Translations under genes and position numbers: made by a program
Notes under the pieces: model-generated
The model's input: the letters and a program-made list of their open reading frames with translations, nothing else
Told to the model about the DNA's origin: nothing
Database searches by the model: none
Shown: in pieces, positions 4,238 through 43,978 of the stretch
Layout: each line of letters starts with the position of its first letter
Position numbering within the stretch: position 1 is the stretch's first letter
Virus record (IMG/VR): IMGVR_UViG_3300032046_000057
Span: 1-43,978 of that record
Strand: one strand, 5' to 3'
DNA length: 43,978 bases
Source of the DNA: a virus

Positions 4238-4693
4238 ATGAACGCACAAACCCAATCCTCTTTCCTCGACATTGACTCTCTCCTCGACGGCACTCTGGAT
4301 GACATTGCAGATATGCCTGAGTTCAAGCCTTTCGCGGCCGGTGCTCATGTCTGTACTCTGAAAGTGGAACAGAAACAAATCGGCGCCGAAAAGACTCCGG
4401 CCTTTGAAGTTTCCCTCACTGTTGTCGAAACTCAAGAGCTTGCCAATCCTGAGAAGGATGAGGCTCCGAAGCCTGGCGATTCCACCAATGTTCTGTACAT
4501 GATGAACAATGAACTGGGTCAAGGTAGTTTCAAGAAGCTCCTGGCTGCGGCGGCTGAATCATTTGGCCCGAAGAAGAACCGGGAACTGATTGATGATCTG
4601 CAAGGTGCTGAAGCTTTGGTTGTCACGAAGGTTCGGATGAATAAGGATAAGACGAAGAGCTATACCGATATTGTCTCGCTCCAGATTGTCTGA
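4238..4693 (+). CDS. Probable single-stranded DNA-binding protein
   Basis: This 151-residue protein has an acidic N-terminus (DIDSLLDGTLDDIADMPEF) followed by a beta-rich region (FAAGAHVCTLKVEQKQIG, AFEVSLTVVETQEL) compatible with an OB fold. The neighbours, a Sak4-like ATPase upstream and DNA polymerase downstream, match the usual place of a phage SSB. Its codons use more G/C-ending triplets than adjoining genes, as expected for an abundantly made protein. A terminator follows (4723-4759). No strong Shine-Dalgarno is seen, only catatc directly before the ATG. Identification is by position and composition, so moderately sure. Confidence 0.6.
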   Translation: MNAQTQSSFLDIDSLLDGTLDDIADMPEFKPFAAGAHVCTLKVEQKQIGAEKTPAFEVSLTVVETQELANPEKDEAPKPGDSTNVLYMMNNELGQGSFKKLLAAAAESFGPKKNRELIDDLQGAEALVVTKVRMNKDKTKSYTDIVSLQIV

Positions 4694-4790: not shown

Positions 4791-7142
4791 ATGAGCGCAA
4801 CAGGTAACTGCCTTTTCCTAGGTACCCCAGAAGATAAACCTTACCTACCTTATCTCAAAGGAATGTTCAATGGTAGATCCACATACACAATCTGTGATAC
4901 TCTCACCATGCTCACAGAGCTGGAATTATATTGTTCCAAGCGAAGCATCACGGCGATTGTCTCGACCTCAGTCACTATCCTCACAAAACTTCTTGCCAAT
5001 TCAGGGAAGTCTGACACCAGGAAACAGCCGAGTCTGTCTAATTATGCCGGATCCGTTTTCACTCACAAAGGGATCGAGATTGTCTTCATCGAACCTTTGG
5101 GACAACTCCTCACAGTTTCCTACGCCAAGTTCATCTACCAACGGCATATCAGTAAAGTTGTATCGCCAGATTCCTGGGCAGAGGCAACATCCTTTGTCTG
5201 GTCTCTTTGTGATTCACCCACTAAGCTAGAGTCCGCATATCATGATCTATCATCTGCATTCCTTATATCTTGTGACATTGAGACTACTCGTGTCAATCTG
5301 GCTATTCGTTGCGTTGGTTATACTGGGCTGTATCGCTCTACCTCTGGTAGCATTGAGTCTCGTTCCTATGTTATTCCTCTGGATTCGAGTTTCAATCTGG
5401 CCTACGTCCGGAAAATAAATGCGCTAGATATCTCGAAGGTATTTCAAAATGGAAAGTATGACAACACATATTTCCTTAGATACAACGCTCCCTGTACCCG
5501 ATGGATCTGGGACACTGCACATCAATTTCATAGTTGGTATTCCGAGCTACCAAAGGATCTTGCTTTCCTTAATGCCTTCTTTCTACGGAAGGTGGTATAC
5601 TGGAAGGATCTTGCAGAGACACAAGACCTTTATGAATACTATAAATACAATGCACTTGATACCTGGGCCACAGCAAATGTCTGCATTCAATGGATTCTTC
5701 GAGCCCCGGACTGGGCCAAAAGGAACTATGCACTAGAGTTTCCCCTAGTGTTCCCGTGTCTCCTGGCTGAGATGACTGGGCTGAAACGAGACCCAGAACG
5801 ACTCCTTGAAGCACGGAAAGAAGTTGATGAAGAAGAATCCTCACTTCTATCTTCTCTCCGTGCGTCTCTCGGCGTAGCCGGTTTCAATCCTGGCTCACCT
5901 GTCCAAGTTAAAACTCTACTCAAAGTTCTAGGCTGTGGAGATATTACCTCCACCAATGAGAAGGATCTGAAGAAAGCAATCCTCCGGCATCCTCTGAATG
6001 AACGACTCCTTGGGGAGCGAGGAATTCTAGGTATCCGAGGGCTCAGGAAACTAGCAACCACATATCTTCGAGTCGAATCTGACGCAGATAAAGATGGAGA
6101 AAAAGGTGCAAAAGAATATCGGAACCGTGTACTTTACGCTCTCAACCCCCACGGCACTGACACGGGGAGACTGGCAAGTAGAGAGCACCATTTCTGGTGT
6201 GGACTACAAATCCAGAATATTCCTAGGGGACCTGAAGTTAAGAAAACCCTCTGCGCTGACGAAGGGTTCTACCTCGCTGAGTGTGACCTTGAACAAGCAG
6301 AATCTAGAGATACCGCACATATTTCTGGAGATGAGGCACTCATTGCAGCAGTTTCTGGAACTCGAGACTTCCACTCAGTTAATGCTAGTAGTTTTTTTGG
6401 CGTGTCATATGAATCCATCTATGATGATAGCGCTGGGAAAACAAGAGACAAGGCGCTTCGTGATCTCGCTAAACGAGTCAACCACGGGGCAAACTACAAC
6501 ATGGGTCCTGGGGTTCTAATTGACACAATGGGAATTGATAAGATCCGGGAAGCTGGTAGATTGCTCAAGCTTCCTTTCAATGACCTGAAGAAGATTGCAG
6601 AGTATCTCCTAGCCCAGTTCCATAAAACCTATCCACGAATCAAGGACTCATACTATGTCAGCGTCGTCAACGAAATCGGAATATCCAGCAAGCTTGTTAG
6701 CCGTGCATATCACCACACAGAATATAATGTCAGAGTTGGTAACGCTGCAAAGTATATTGAACAAGGCGACTGGACTAGATACTGCTTTGGAAAACCAGAT
6801 AAAAACAAACTTGATTTGAATAGCTATGTGGCCCATTGTCCGCAATCACTCAATGCAAGAACTCTTAACGAAGCATTCATGAGGGTGTTCTATGAAGTTG
6901 CACTACCCAACCCAACTACCTTCCGCCTACACGCCCAGATACACGACTCAATTCTCTTTTCATATGCGCACGGAAGGGAAGAGCATGCTAATACAGTTCG
7001 TGAATGTATGGAGATTCCTGTCAGTGTCCGCGATGTATCTGGAGTTACACGAACCTTCACAGTCCCGGCTGCCCTGAAGATGGGGAAGAAGGATAAGGAA
7101 GGTAATTTCAAACCTGCAATTTATTGGTCCGAGACTGAGTAA
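4791..7142 (+). CDS. Family A DNA polymerase with 3'-5' exonuclease
   Basis: This 783-residue phage replicative polymerase of the Pol I / T7 class extends DNA and proofreads. The exonuclease motifs are Exo I Asp162-X-Glu164 (SCDIETT), Exo II Asp224 (NGKYDN) and Exo III Tyr286 to Asp290 (YNALD). The polymerase motifs are A at Asp499 (AECDLEQAESR), B at about residues 557-569 (RDLAKRVNHGANY, where Phe is the more common residue in O-helix motifs elsewhere) and C at His718-Asp719 (QIHDSIL). All catalytic acids are present. No 5'-3' exonuclease domain is present, as in T7 and other phage enzymes. The start has AGGAG six bases upstream. It heads the DUF3987 ATPase / MazG cluster. Confidence 0.95.
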   Translation: MSATGNCLFLGTPEDKPYLPYLKGMFNGRSTYTICDTLTMLTELELYCSKRSITAIVSTSVTILTKLLANSGKSDTRKQPSLSNYAGSVFTHKGIEIVFIEPLGQLLTVSYAKFIYQRHISKVVSPDSWAEATSFVWSLCDSPTKLESAYHDLSSAFLISCDIETTRVNLAIRCVGYTGLYRSTSGSIESRSYVIPLDSSFNLAYVRKINALDISKVFQNGKYDNTYFLRYNAPCTRWIWDTAHQFHSWYSELPKDLAFLNAFFLRKVVYWKDLAETQDLYEYYKYNALDTWATANVCIQWILRAPDWAKRNYALEFPLVFPCLLAEMTGLKRDPERLLEARKEVDEEESSLLSSLRASLGVAGFNPGSPVQVKTLLKVLGCGDITSTNEKDLKKAILRHPLNERLLGERGILGIRGLRKLATTYLRVESDADKDGEKGAKEYRNRVLYALNPHGTDTGRLASREHHFWCGLQIQNIPRGPEVKKTLCADEGFYLAECDLEQAESRDTAHISGDEALIAAVSGTRDFHSVNASSFFGVSYESIYDDSAGKTRDKALRDLAKRVNHGANYNMGPGVLIDTMGIDKIREAGRLLKLPFNDLKKIAEYLLAQFHKTYPRIKDSYYVSVVNEIGISSKLVSRAYHHTEYNVRVGNAAKYIEQGDWTRYCFGKPDKNKLDLNSYVAHCPQSLNARTLNEAFMRVFYEVALPNPTTFRLHAQIHDSILFSYAHGREEHANTVRECMEIPVSVRDVSGVTRTFTVPAALKMGKKDKEGNFKPAIYWSETE

Positions 7143-7569: not shown

Positions 7570-8844
7570 ATGCCACCAGAGGACTTCTTCTCCTCTTATC
7601 TTTCCTACACATCGAATACAGAAGTTCCTGCCTTCTTCTCCAGATGGGCGGCAATTACTGGAATCGGTGCATTCCTTGGGCGCCAACTCTACTTCGAGCA
7701 TGGACACTTTACTATTCATCCGAATATGTATACCATGCTCATCGGCTCCCCAGGAACCAGAAAGTCTACGGCAATTAAGCTGATGAAGAAACTGTTAGTC
7801 AATGCAGGTTACGACACAATAGCAGCAGATAAGACAACCAAAGAGAAGTTCCTTCTGGATCTGGCAGGAGAATCAGGCGACCCGAAGGAAATCAAATCAG
7901 TCCAGTCGATTCTGGAAGAGAATATATTCGGTGATTCCGATGAAGGGAAACAAGATGCAGAATGTTTCATTATGGCGGATGAGTTCAATGATTTTTTTGG
8001 CAATGGGAACATTGAGTTTATCTCTTTACTTGGCACTCTATGGGATTATTCGGGGAACTACAAGAATCGAATCAAGAACGGGACAAGTGTTTCTATTCAT
8101 AATCCTACTGTCTCTATTCTTGGGGGCAATACTCCCACTGGATTTTCTTTAGCCTTTCCTACTGAAATCCTAGGCCAGGGTTTCTTCTCACGTATCCTCT
8201 TAATCTATGGTGAACCAAATGGAAAACGAATCGCATTCCCAGAACCTCCAGATCCAAAGCATACAGAATATCTTGTTGAACGACTTAGAAGGATTAAAAC
8301 AGATTGCTACGGAGCAATTGAGGTTACAGGTACTTCACGAAAACTCCTTGAAAAGATTTACTCTAGACCTAGAGCGCTTGAAGATGTGCGGTTTGAGTCG
8401 TATTCAACTAGAAGATTCTCCCATCTACTTAAGCTTGCTCTGGTATACTCAGCATCTTCGGGCAGAAAGACTCTCCTTGAAACAGATGTTATCGGAGCAA
8501 ACACAATTCTCTCCTACACTGAACAGCTTATGCCAAAAGCTCTTGGAGAATTCGGAAAAGCAAAGAACTCAGATGTGAGTCACAAAGTTATCCAGCTCCT
8601 AGATTCTGCCACTCATGTGGTAGCATTTAAGGAAATCTGGAGACACGTTAGTTCTGACTTGGAGAAACCTGCTGACTTAGCTACAATCATGCAGAACCTC
8701 CAGATGGCAGATAAGATTCAGCAGGTAAAAGGTGCAGATGGTGCGATGGGATTTCTACCTAAGCGCCGAACGATTGAGCAATATGATTCCTCGTTGCTTG
8801 ATTACTCGATCTTAACAGAGGAAGAACGAAAGATTATACTATGA
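7570..8844 (+). CDS. DUF3987-type ATPase, putative primase-helicase component
   Basis: This 424-residue P-loop protein has Walker A at residues 59-67 (GSPGTRKST) and Walker B Asp137-Glu138 (FIMADEFND). A conserved-looking SILGGNTPTGF motif follows, then a helical C-terminus. The overall pattern fits DUF3987 proteins, common in phage and plasmid replication modules and regarded as helicase or primase-helicase ATPases. No separate zinc-ribbon or TOPRIM primase is visible, so how primers are made is open. It lies between DNA polymerase and MazG genes and overlaps the latter by four bases. Confidence 0.8.
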   Translation: MPPEDFFSSYLSYTSNTEVPAFFSRWAAITGIGAFLGRQLYFEHGHFTIHPNMYTMLIGSPGTRKSTAIKLMKKLLVNAGYDTIAADKTTKEKFLLDLAGESGDPKEIKSVQSILEENIFGDSDEGKQDAECFIMADEFNDFFGNGNIEFISLLGTLWDYSGNYKNRIKNGTSVSIHNPTVSILGGNTPTGFSLAFPTEILGQGFFSRILLIYGEPNGKRIAFPEPPDPKHTEYLVERLRRIKTDCYGAIEVTGTSRKLLEKIYSRPRALEDVRFESYSTRRFSHLLKLALVYSASSGRKTLLETDVIGANTILSYTEQLMPKALGEFGKAKNSDVSHKVIQLLDSATHVVAFKEIWRHVSSDLEKPADLATIMQNLQMADKIQQVKGADGAMGFLPKRRTIEQYDSSLLDYSILTEEERKIIL

Positions 8845-9299
8845 CTCAGAGCCCTTCAGCTTCCCAATCCCTCCACGAAGCAGATCCAAATCTCAACTCA
8901 TCTTCCAGAGCCAACTCATTCATCTGGGTTCAAGTCCAAGGAGAAGATGGTCTCCCAATTCTCAAACATATTCGCTATGACCAGTTTGTACTTCTCCTTC
9001 TCAAAGCAGATACCTACTCCAACCAAGCTAATCATGTTGCTCTCGGAGTGTGCGGAGAAGCTGGAGAGTTTGCTGATTGTATCAAGAAACATCTACACTA
9101 CTCTCAGCCCCTTGATCGTGATAATCTTATTGAAGAACTCGGAGACCTGAGGTTCTATATCCAAGCGGCACAGAATATCTGGAATGTAACTGAGCAAGAG
9201 ATTCTCCAGGCGAATGCGAAGAAACTGGAGAAGCGGTATAAGTCTCTGGCTTTCACGGAGCAAGAAGCAAAGGATAGGAATGACAAAACAGGGGCATAA
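8841..9299 (+). CDS. MazG-like nucleoside triphosphate pyrophosphohydrolase
   Basis: This 152-residue protein carries the MazG-type EXXE-EXXD metal site: Glu73 and Glu76 (CGEAGEFAD), Glu98-Glu99 and Asp102 (EELGDLRFY), in helices typical of all-alpha NTP pyrophosphatases. These enzymes hydrolyse (d)NTPs to monophosphates and in phages may adjust nucleotide or alarmone pools. An approximately 45-residue Ser/Gln-rich N-terminus precedes the domain. The start overlaps the previous stop (ATGA), and the end overlaps the winged-helix gene by 20 bases. Confidence 0.85.
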   Translation: MTQSPSASQSLHEADPNLNSSSRANSFIWVQVQGEDGLPILKHIRYDQFVLLLLKADTYSNQANHVALGVCGEAGEFADCIKKHLHYSQPLDRDNLIEELGDLRFYIQAAQNIWNVTEQEILQANAKKLEKRYKSLAFTEQEAKDRNDKTGA

Positions 9300-9621
9300 G
9301 CTGATTCCAGGAGCTTCCTCTACCTCATTTGCAGAACTCTGTTTGCTCCTGAACCAGGGATATTTTAGTCAGGCAGAACTACAGGAGCGGATCGGAGTTT
9401 GCAATGCTACCATGACTCGGTACATGCTCCTATTGAGGCGAAGGGAATTGATCTACATTCATGTATGGATTCGAACTGGAAGAAGCACTACACCGTATTG
9501 GGCCTGGGGATACAATACTCCTAGCGCACCTAAACCAATCCCTCAGACTGTAGCTCATGCTTGTAAGCAGTATCGAATCAGATTGAAACTAAAGGAGTTA
9601 TATGGCAACACAACAACGTGA
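9280..9621 (+). CDS. Winged-helix / HTH DNA-binding protein
   Basis: This 113-residue basic protein starts at ATG 9280, just after an AGGA at 9275-9278 within the MazG gene. The upstream in-frame start at 9214 lies inside MazG and is less likely. Residues about 17-60 read as a helix-turn-helix: a SFAELCLLLNQGYFSQAELQ helix, then QERIGVCNATMTRYMLLLRR. A wing-like segment with YWAWGYNT follows. It could be a transcription regulator of the phage switch or a replication accessory protein. Its end overlaps the next gene by 20 bases. Confidence 0.65.
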   Translation: MTKQGHKLIPGASSTSFAELCLLLNQGYFSQAELQERIGVCNATMTRYMLLLRRRELIYIHVWIRTGRSTTPYWAWGYNTPSAPKPIPQTVAHACKQYRIRLKLKELYGNTTT

Positions 9622-35639: not shown

Positions 35640-36323
35640 ATGTCAGTCATCGGCAATCGTCACACTGTCACCCCGTTTATTTCTGGTGAGTCTAAGGCAC
35701 AGCATGGGCAAAGACTCGCGAAGGTTGGTTATAAGAGCACGAAAGACAAGGAGACAAAGAAGGAGATTCCGCCTAAGTTTCCCTCGATCTGTGTCTCTGT
35801 GCCTCAGATTCCGGCTGAGTTTTTGAGTGCGGATAACATCAAACGTCTGGCACCTTATATTGGTTCGATGCTTGAGGAAGCTCAGAATGGTGTGATTAGG
35901 TCGCTGTATGAGTCTTCTCAGGGTTCGCTCTCTGCTGTCTCTGATGATGATATTGGAATTGATGCAATCTGCGGGTATCTGGAGTCTCAGGCCAATGGTG
36001 ATAGATTGTCTGGGGATTCAATCGGTGCGTGGTTTGATACTGCGGCGCGCGATAATCTGACTGTCATCTTTGCGGATAAGCTGGGTTTTGATCTCTCGAC
36101 TCCTGAGCAGGAACAGACAGTGGCCAAACACTGCGGAATGTATCGGGCTCTCATGGTTTCTTTGAGCGGGAAAGAACTCGCACCTACGATCCAGCAGAAA
36201 CAGGCTATGCGAGTTGTTCTCCGAGTCTCTGAAGATGACTCAGTGATCGCACAGAAACTCACTGCGAAACTGGATCAATTGGATAAGAAACCAGATATGG
36301 AAGCACTGTTGCTGATTGATTGA
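35640..36323 (+). CDS. Unknown early protein, possible paralogue of 42979 product
   Basis: This 227-residue protein has GGAG nine bases ahead of its ATG. The N-terminal 40 residues are basic and polar. The rest is helical and acidic. No domain is recognised. Its layout resembles the 42979 product: an E-x-x-N-x-VIR motif (EEAQNGVIRSLYE against KEAMYNVIRGAVA), a Trp/Phe-bearing helix (SGDSIGAWFDTAARD against ITAESWAAFAADYV) and a similar end (LTAKLDQLDKKPDMEALLLI against LTKKLDTYMKADDPALLLQG). This suggests distant duplication. A hairpin leader precedes it and a terminator-like hairpin follows. Confidence 0.65.
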   Translation: MSVIGNRHTVTPFISGESKAQHGQRLAKVGYKSTKDKETKKEIPPKFPSICVSVPQIPAEFLSADNIKRLAPYIGSMLEEAQNGVIRSLYESSQGSLSAVSDDDIGIDAICGYLESQANGDRLSGDSIGAWFDTAARDNLTVIFADKLGFDLSTPEQEQTVAKHCGMYRALMVSLSGKELAPTIQQKQAMRVVLRVSEDDSVIAQKLTAKLDQLDKKPDMEALLLID

Positions 36324-36337
36324 TCCTGAGCTAGATT

Positions 36338-36364
36338 CTCCCTGGATAGATTCCGGGGAGGTTT
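36338..36364 (+). terminator. Terminator-like hairpin after 35640 gene
   Basis: CTCCCTGG (36338-36345) pairs with CCGGGGAG (36353-36360), eight pairs with one G-U, followed by GTTT. The T-tract is short, so it is a moderate terminator. Confidence 0.5.
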
Positions 36365-36723
36365 AGTTAGATAGTTCTGTTTTAGTTTCCAGTTCTATCT
36401 AACTAGACCGTAAAAATCACAGTCTGCCAGACCGCTAGACCGCCAGACTGTTCAAAATTCCCATAGGCCATATGAGCCCCTATTTTGCCCCCTCATGCGT
36501 GTATATATCTTTTATACCTCTATATATCTATTTATATATCCCTCCCTATGTATAAGATTAAATTTTTAGTGGGGGTAGGTTTATACCCTAAGACTAGAGT
36601 TATAGTTACATACCTATAGATACCATAACAAGTAATATCTAACTTAGCTCTAGGGCAGGGGTTGACACGGCAGGCCCATAGGCGTACCCTGATTTTGGGC
36701 GGTCTGACAGTCTAGCAGTCTAG
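36364..36723. other. Candidate replication origin with inverted iteron arrays
   Basis: This gene-free stretch of 446 bases (36324-36769) contains, in order: a perfect 11-pair inverted repeat TAGTTAGATAG / CTATCTAACTA (36364-36374, 36395-36405); a CTAGACCG unit (36403-36410); three tandem 8-bp units CCAGACCG, CTAGACCG, CCAGACTG (36427-36450); CCCATAGGC (36460-36468) leading to CCCCTATTTTG; an AT-rich core with repeated TATATAT (about 36500-36660); CCCATAGGC again (36675-36683) leading to CCCTGATTTTG; and three inverted 8-bp units CGGTCTGA, CAGTCTAG, CAGTCTAG (36700-36723). Consensus unit CYAGACYG. Iterons around an AT-rich core are classic for origins. A regulatory site is the alternative. Confidence 0.55.
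36662..36690 (+). promoter_or_regulatory. Sigma70 promoter inside iteron region
   Basis: TTGACA (36662-36667), a 17-base spacer, then TACCCT (36685-36690): consensus -35, three of six at -10. The spacer contains the second CCCATAGGC copy, and the right iteron array begins 10 bases downstream, around +3. A protein bound there would repress it. It would read the 36770 gene and the following small genes. Confidence 0.5.
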
Positions 36724-36769
36724 TTTCCCGTCCATTCTTTTCAATCTCAATTTATGAAAGTTTCATCTT

Positions 36770-42978: not shown

Positions 42979-43623
42979 ATGACCGACCAAAACCAAACCG
43001 CCAAAATCGTTCCTAACTTCGACAACACCGTGGAATCGGTTGCAATGAAGTTTCGTTTCAAGAAGGATAAGCTGGATTCGCAGCGTCCTACTGTCGAAAT
43101 TTCTGCTCTGGTTCCTAGTCTCGAAGGCATTGTTGCAATCCTGGAATCTGGCGATGCCAAGCAGCAAGAACTGCTGAAAGAGGCAATGTACAATGTGATC
43201 CGTGGCGCAGTTGCTGCGGATGTTGCTGAAGATGAAACGTTTAGTCAAGAAACCTTTGACAAGGACTTTGCTAAGAAGTATTCGTGGGGTGCAATTGCTA
43301 ATCAGGATCGTGCAGATCGTCGTGCAACTTCCATCACTGCCGAATCTTGGGCTGCTTTTGCTGCTGATTATGTGGAAATCATGCCAGCAGTTGCGAACAA
43401 GAAGAAGGAAGCTGTGGAACTGGCAGCCAGTGTCTTTGTGAAGAAGTTCTCCTCGGTTAAGACCAACAAGGAAATCCTGGTGGTTCTCAAGAACCAACTG
43501 GCTCTCTATGTTGAGCACACCAAGAAGGGCGAGGAATTCAGCGAGATCATTGAGGTGCTGACTAAGAAGCTGGATACTTACATGAAGGCTGATGATCCTG
43601 CTCTGCTGCTGCAGGGTCTGTAA
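42979..43623 (+). CDS. Abundant early protein of unknown function
   Basis: This 214-residue protein has an initial FDNTVESVAMKFRFKKDKLD, a helical acidic middle and a C-terminal helix bundle (ITAESWAAFAADYVEIMP, EIIEVLTKKLDTYMKADD). No domain is recognised. Codons are biased to a restricted G/C-ending set, like the capsid and SSB-like genes, and the best promoter of the genome precedes it, so it is probably made in large amounts early. No Shine-Dalgarno is seen (aaaatc before ATG). It may be a distant paralogue of the 35640 product. A DNA- or RNA-binding or host-takeover role is possible. Confidence 0.7.
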   Translation: MTDQNQTAKIVPNFDNTVESVAMKFRFKKDKLDSQRPTVEISALVPSLEGIVAILESGDAKQQELLKEAMYNVIRGAVAADVAEDETFSQETFDKDFAKKYSWGAIANQDRADRRATSITAESWAAFAADYVEIMPAVANKKKEAVELAASVFVKKFSSVKTNKEILVVLKNQLALYVEHTKKGEEFSEIIEVLTKKLDTYMKADDPALLLQGL

Positions 43624-43643: not shown

Positions 43644-43799
43644 ATAGTGTCTGAATGCCTCACTATCCGAGCAGTTTAGTTTTAACTAAGACTGCTGATC
43701 CCCTTAACAACGCGGTTAGATAGTGCAGTTAGTAGGTAAGACACTCCCTGATATAGAGCAATCACCTAGCTAGTTTCATGTCGGAGTGTACTAGCTAGG
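43644..43799 (+). other. Structured non-coding region with hairpins and possible pseudoknot
   Basis: After the 43623 stop come ATAGTG/CACTAT (43644-43649, 43661-43666) and a hairpin GCAGT-TTAGT with ACTAA-g-ACTGC (43671-43695). Further on, ACACTCC (43741-43747) pairs with GGAGTGT (43783-43789), and CCTAGCTAGT (43765-43774) pairs with ACTAGCTAGG (43790-43799). The last two helices interleave, with their 3' arms directly adjacent: the layout of an H-type pseudoknot. No T-run follows. A 22-codon ORF (43655-43723) without a ribosome-binding site lies within. No known RNA family recognised. Confidence 0.4.
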
Positions 43800-43978
43800 G
43801 CCAAGCAACTCCTGGGTATGAGTATAAACTGCCCAACAAATCGTATCTTTAGTCCATCACCCGGACGCAATCCTTACCAGTAATCGTGAACAGATTGAGA
43901 ATCGTGGGGATTTTCAACGGGTAAACATCTGAGTTGCACAGAGTGAGTGATGGACTAAGAATATGAAATTATGACCTC
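43792..43978. repeat. Right copy of 187-bp terminal direct repeat
   Basis: This copy matches 1-187 except g43919 and a43946. In it the inner 8-pair and outer 13-pair helices of the nested element each lose one pair. It ends inside the start of the first gene (ATGACCTC), confirming that the plus-strand arm continues across the junction. Confidence 0.9.

Follow-up and report, generated by a model that had tools for sequence, protein, structure and literature searches.

Paired inverted iteron arrays at a probable replication origin of tailed phages encoding an MCM-like helicase

Introduction

The AAA+ helicases Rep of SaPI and Cch2 of SCCmec use their C-terminal domain to recognise short iterons at the origin, and Rep apparently acts as two hexamers (PMC7581432). 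In SCCmec, an A-family polymerase is encoded within the helicase operon (PMC7581432, PMC10061031). Here we analyse a stretch of viral DNA, the window, whose 43,978 bp make up an entire virus record (IMG/VR IMGVR_UViG_3300032046_000057). It shares with these systems short iterons at a putative origin and an AAA+ helicase with a C-terminal winged helix in its predicted fold. The SaPI and SCCmec origins, however, belong to mobile islands and are located directly downstream of the helicase gene, whereas the arrays of the window are found in a tailed phage, about 15 kb away from that gene on the circular map and at an early promoter. The helicases also differ in family, being DUF3987/MCM-like in the window and DUF927 or D5_N/Primase_Cterm in the Rep and Cch proteins of SaPI and SCC elements. 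Given that all 53 of 53 homologues of the window helicase match Pfam DUF3987, the phage protein may work like the SaPI/SCC type, but we do not count it as a member.

Other origin types offer further points of comparison. Iteron plasmid origins, served by Rep and DnaA, also have direct repeats beside an AT-rich region, and the position of an array at a promoter suggests autoregulation as another likeness; their repeat period is about 17-22 bp, as opposed to 8 bp in the window, which lacks a matching Rep protein and has two inverted arrays with the AT-rich region between them. In origins of the lambda type, iterons for the O protein adjoin an AT-rich region as well, but this layout is one-sided; in the window, no O-like initiator was found and the arrays are not embedded in an initiator gene. 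Finally, the modelled window helicase best matches MCM subunits of eukaryotes and archaea, and inverted sites would suit head-to-head loading of such proteins, although the resemblance is one of predicted fold and neither ORC/Cdc6 nor an N-terminal MCM domain was identified in the window. In the literature searched, we found no published origin for this phage group.

Results

Array locus and gene layout of the window

The record ends (1-187 and 43792-43978) form an imperfect 187-bp direct repeat with about two mismatches, so that the map closes into a circle of about 43.8 kb. On it, the early genes extend rightward from 35.3 kb over the junction to 10.1 kb, and the structural genes leftward from 35.1 to 10.2 kb. 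On a hand-made list of open reading frames, the gap at 36324-36769 is the longest internal non-coding stretch of the record; the early operon follows directly downstream, and terS and terL are located about 1.3 kb leftward of the arrays. A nucleotide search of cultured phages with the window gave no match, and all matches to cultured phages are distant and at the protein level. The gap and its left neighbour contain the following features:

35640..36323, plus strand: conserved gene left of the arrays, 227 aa, paralogue of 42979; about three strands and seven helices, without a fold match
36337..36361, plus strand: terminator-like hairpin after gene 35640, ahead of the left array
36364..36405, no strand: perfect 11-bp inverted repeat (36364-36374 / 36395-36405)
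36403..36410, plus strand: lone CTAGACCG unit outside the left array
36419-36426, plus strand: degenerate unit ACAGTCTG ahead of the left array (36419..36450 with this unit included)
36427-36450, plus strand: left iteron array, three perfect CYAGACYG units, CCAGACCG CTAGACCG CCAGACTG; conserved in relatives
36451..36699, no strand: non-coding core between the arrays
36560..36577, plus strand: core motif AAATTTTTAGTGGGGGTA, an A/T run followed by a G4-6 or C4-6 tract; same place in relatives
36586-36594, plus strand: CCCTAAGAC, after the core motif
36662..36690, plus strand: sigma-70-like early promoter, TTGACA (36662-36667), 17-bp spacer, TACCCT (36685-36690); inner side of the right array
36700..36723, minus strand: right iteron array, three units inverted relative to the left, CTAGACTG CTAGACTG TCAGACCG (minus-strand reading), one mismatch; conserved in relatives

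The original prediction had described both arrays, the lone unit, the 11-pair inverted repeat to their left, the intervening AT-rich bases and a promoter overlapping the right side, and each of these is present. The arrays are far beyond chance: a three-unit tandem with at most three mismatches occurs in the 43,978 bp solely at these two positions and in none of 100 dinucleotide shuffles, and the left-right inverted pair scores 16.5, above all shuffles (maximum 10.2). Positions 36501-36650 are the most AT-rich 150 bp of the genome, with 71% AT against a genome mean of 54%. The locus thus combines what is found at iteron origins, namely short tandem direct repeats beyond chance and an adjoining region that is AT-rich by its AT content. 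The right array begins about 10 bp past the -10 hexamer and covers the start region of the early promoter, which a generic promoter scan missed because this hexamer is weak. Also as predicted, copies of CCCATAGGC flank the inner sides of the arrays (36460 and 36675); in the closest relatives, however, the left copy was not seen and the right side has TAGGC within the promoter spacer. The blocks are unconserved and look incidental, and we dropped them as a component of the element.

Spacing is kept while unit sequences differ

Relatives were collected by an IMG/VR search with the polymerase (80 loci), a homologue of 35640 being present in 29 of 50 records examined, and by a profile search with the 35640 family (47 loci), for which the profile was built from a closer subset, the full homologue alignment being too diverse for a DNA scan. 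Most loci have two inverted arrays downstream of the 35640 homologue, and the paired arrays occupy this homologous place although the neighbouring protein is only about 30-50% identical. Within the second locus set, 25 of 30 non-duplicate loci scored above all six of their own shuffles. Arrays are nonetheless visible by eye in four loci that fail this test (L193, L197, L217, L222); L201 has no clear arrays, and L236 passes marginally without a clear array. One locus downstream of a 35640 homologue (L232, genome G029) has its left array duplicated about 120 bp apart, with two copies of AAAGACTGCTAGACTGTCAGACTG.

The alignment of relatives proposed originally, to see whether spacing is kept while sequence drifts, bears out both parts. 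A lag of 8 bp fits the repeats best in 27 of 33 loci (6, 7, 9, 9, 10 and 12 in the remaining six), and the units differ. AGAC-type lineages carry CYAGACYG and near forms; elsewhere we find GTGACYGT (G011), TATTTGAC (L215), TTATCCYG (G034, G036), TGAATGCC (G035), TGCCA-type units (G040, G050) and ATTCAT/AATCAT with a 6-bp step (G039). With arms delimited by hand, the two arms of one phage are far more alike than arms taken from different phages, also when AGAC-type phages are left out (0 of 5000 permutations). As judged from these comparisons, the unit sequence drifts with both arms changing in concert, while the spacing persists. Such unit changes form a natural series in which the joint evolution of an initiator and its sites can be studied. 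The distance between the arrays ranges from 217 to 438 bp across loci, and its remainder modulo 10.5 bp is spread out, giving no sign of helical phasing.

Parts of the core recur as well. A strict pattern for the core motif is matched in 20 of 39 loci, against 1.25 expected from shuffles. AT content of the core is the genome maximum in five other genomes and within the top ~1% of each genome's stretches in most of 20 genomes, exceptions including G034, G032 and G019. A strict scan for a conserved terminator ahead of the left array found one in 10 of 39 loci.

A search blind to gene position extends to cultured phages

We also searched each record over its full length for its strongest inverted repeat, allowing 150-480 bp between the arms and ignoring gene position. 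The array locus was the top match in 16 of 26 records (the window, 119X, Tiera, G035, G038, G039, G040, G034, G009, G021, G050, G036, G030, G014, G029 and G032) and one of the four strongest in G011, PaMx41, Neko, G004 and G019. No such locus emerged in Aeromonas phage P5, EBPR podovirus 3 (partial), G016 (weak pair), G022 and G037; contig breaks fall within the locus in the latter two, that of G037 in a TATG tandem repeat at the expected left-array position. P5 has a helicase homologue, and no such arrays were found there. The match in G035 has units of 8 bp together with the core motif and a TTGAC box, and constitutes a genuine prediction because no 35640 homologue had been detected in this genome beforehand. 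This blind signature, an AT core flanked by two inverted arrays that co-vary, locates the site in uncultured relatives.

Among cultured phages, inverted CAAGGT/ACCTTG arrays are present in the gap that precedes the early operon in the Pseudomonas phages 119X, PaP2, PaMx41, TF17 and Neko (Fredfastierviridae), and Polaromonas phage Tiera has inverted arms of the form TCGATGTAC...ATGTTCGTTAT. Next to its left arm, Tiera (L184, about 1255-1400) carries a direct repeat formed by duplication of an approximately 70-bp segment. The Fredfastierviridae (PaP2, 119X, PaMx41) resemble the window in their homologous replication genes and in paired inverted arrays at an equivalent gap; they differ in the ACCTTG unit, in a period of 10 bp on the right side, in a DNA polymerase only about 27% identical to that of the window, and in that the 35640 and 42979 families are undetectable. 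The gap-adjoining genes of 119X and Tiera are homologous to each other and not detectably related to 35640. The group spans cultured P. aeruginosa phages (PaP2, 119X, PaMx41) and one phage reported as episomal: Shea, a close relative of PaP2, is reported to persist non-integrated, apparently as an episome (PMC13348215), a state that would need an origin.

An MCM-like helicase is the widespread candidate

Three early genes with a potential part in replication lie in one stretch of the window:

4238..4693, plus strand: small conserved protein adjoining the polymerase; SSB-like by inspection alone, without a family match
4791..7142, plus strand: A-family DNA polymerase
7570..8844, plus strand: MCM-like AAA+ helicase with a C-terminal winged helix (PHROGs 'DNA primase', Pfam DUF3987); candidate initiator helicase

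The AlphaFold model of the 7570-8844 product (pLDDT 89, pTM 0.83) was compared with the PDB, and all 50 matches listed are MCM and CMG helicase subunits (E 3e-9 to 1e-6). TM-scores of about 0.4-0.5 indicate a common fold rather than a close structural twin. Within the PDB, the MCM match came from fold comparison alone, as nothing emerged when a sequence profile of the helicase family was searched against it. Pfam MCM was matched directly by 2 of 53 homologues. Residues about 334-397 at the C-terminus are predicted to form a winged-helix-like domain. The modelled fold is thus that of an MCM-like AAA+ helicase ending in a winged helix, which ties a phage protein usually named primase to the MCM helicase fold. 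The original prediction had seen no iteron-binding initiator of known type and expected a new one; this view has to be revised, since the predicted fold is the architecture of the self-loading SaPI/SCC initiators and a candidate of known type therefore exists. Apart from this family, which carries the primase name, no separate primase was recognised in the window, and conceivably the A-family polymerase with its small neighbour could make primers, as in SCCmec.

The helicase is encoded by 19 of 19 relatives and clearly homologous in 119X and Tiera (E 1e-108 and 1e-118). The products of 35640, 42979, 9602 and 38407, all conserved and without an assigned function, were not detectable in these two phages, so that among the conserved candidate binders compared, the helicase alone is common to the clade of the window, 119X and Tiera. 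The identity of its predicted recognition helix is 44% among phages with AGAC units and 40% between unit types; it does not track the unit, and the winged helix may therefore not be what reads it. No protein stands out for co-variation with the arrays, the best partial correlations being 0.28 for the polymerase and 0.25 for the helicase. Two of the binders proposed initially are rare or absent among relatives: the gene for the MarR-like 9214-9621 product occurs in 4 of 19, for which reason we rejected it as a general binder, and homologues of 36770 in none of the 19. The 35640 product was likewise set aside as initiator: it yields a good AlphaFold model (pLDDT 89), but one with no recognisable DNA-binding fold and no fold match in the PDB or a viral library. 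It is paralogous to the product of 42979-43623 (hhalign E 1e-5 over 178 columns). Homologues of 35640 in bacterial genomes were not found, and there is thus no evidence for a prophage state.

Cumulative GC skew, also suggested initially as a check, has an inflection near the arrays, with a sign change there in most genomes, but as a maximum. Origins usually coincide with the minimum of the cumulative skew, so that the sign is opposite to that expected. Both 35640 and 42979 have an unusual positive GC skew at codon position 3; this measure is confounded because 42979, on the other side of the arrays, equals its paralogue in skew. GC skew is evidence in neither direction.

Discussion

What might the paired arrays do? 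An origin is the best explanation of the locus, and this part of the original prediction is much strengthened by the comparison of relatives, with its conserved layout, kept spacing and joint change of the arms, even though GC skew does not settle it. More specifically, the locus is probably an origin served by a self-loading type of helicase, probably also with a side role in regulation. We envision a scenario whereby the two inverted arrays are binding sites that seat an initiator or helicase assembly on each side of the AT-rich region, which would then be opened between them, with forks leaving both ways. For the helicase, the likeliest candidate is the MCM-like AAA+ protein that the phage itself encodes, which would act at the arrays alone or with a partner; its winged helix is placed where related self-loading initiator helicases carry their iteron-binding domain. 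In the clade of the window, the right array lies over the early promoter start, so its binder probably restrains early transcription, and such autoregulation would probably couple initiation to the expression of the replication genes.

Is the locus perhaps an operator and nothing else? A repressor or early regulator bound to both arrays might loop out the core and shut the early promoter. We regard this main rival as unlikely, notwithstanding that the overlap of the right array with a promoter fits it equally well. In the clade of the window, the TTGACA box is located to the inside of the right array, whose units lie over the -10 hexamer or the start; no outward-facing promoter of this type was seen at the left array in that clade. 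An overlap of the right array with the promoter start is seen in most AGAC-type relatives, with 14-43 bp between TTGAC and the first unit. The early operon is directly downstream, and the episomal persistence proposed for Shea would suit the idea of a carrier state. Given the promoter overlap, the locus likely acts in regulation, be it solely or besides another function. A loop, however, needs neither a recurring core motif nor very high AT content, and it sits poorly with array distances of 217-438 bp without helical phasing. By inspection, moreover, Tiera has its right array upstream of the likely promoter, and in 119X no TTGACA box can be made out at the array, so that what is constant in the wider group is the pair of arrays round an AT-rich core. 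Nor was a universal phage repressor found, the MarR-like protein being restricted to a minority of relatives.

Other functions are less probable still. That the locus is a packaging or terminus site (pac/cos) read by the small terminase is improbable, even with terS and terL nearby. The records of 119X, PaP2 and PaMx41 (L187, L188, L191) begin within 1 bp of one point in the core between the arrays, as a physical end might; those of TF17 and Neko start elsewhere, and the shared start may therefore be a convention. Inverted arrays of drifting units up to 438 bp apart are not usual for pac or cos sites. Terminally redundant ends have been reported for Shea (PMC13348215), but the assemblies of several relatives are circular, with end overlaps of k-mer size, which gives no sign of a fixed end here. 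A centromere-like partition site for low-copy episomal maintenance would match the style of plasmid centromeres and the persistence suggested for Shea, but is very improbable; the early proteins scanned gave no ParA/ParB-like match. Hardly more credible is an RNA element, with the right array in the early-transcript leader or the arms pairing in a long transcript: the promoter of the window places the right array in the transcript from about its first base, but the left array is outside the early transcript and preceded by a terminator-like hairpin, and an Rfam search found nothing.

Returning to the origin, its geometry invites a bolder scenario, which we put forward tentatively and hold to be doubtful. 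This widespread phage lineage might load two MCM-like hexamers head to head at mirror-image arrays on either side of the AT-rich core, in a phage counterpart of MCM double-hexamer loading whose recognition sequence drifts quickly and in step at both arrays.

Repeats of a similar kind also occur in other settings. In three phage contigs that appear unrelated (L084, L087, L095), a TTGACA-type promoter is directly followed by CCAGACYA repeats, which are oriented the other way round.
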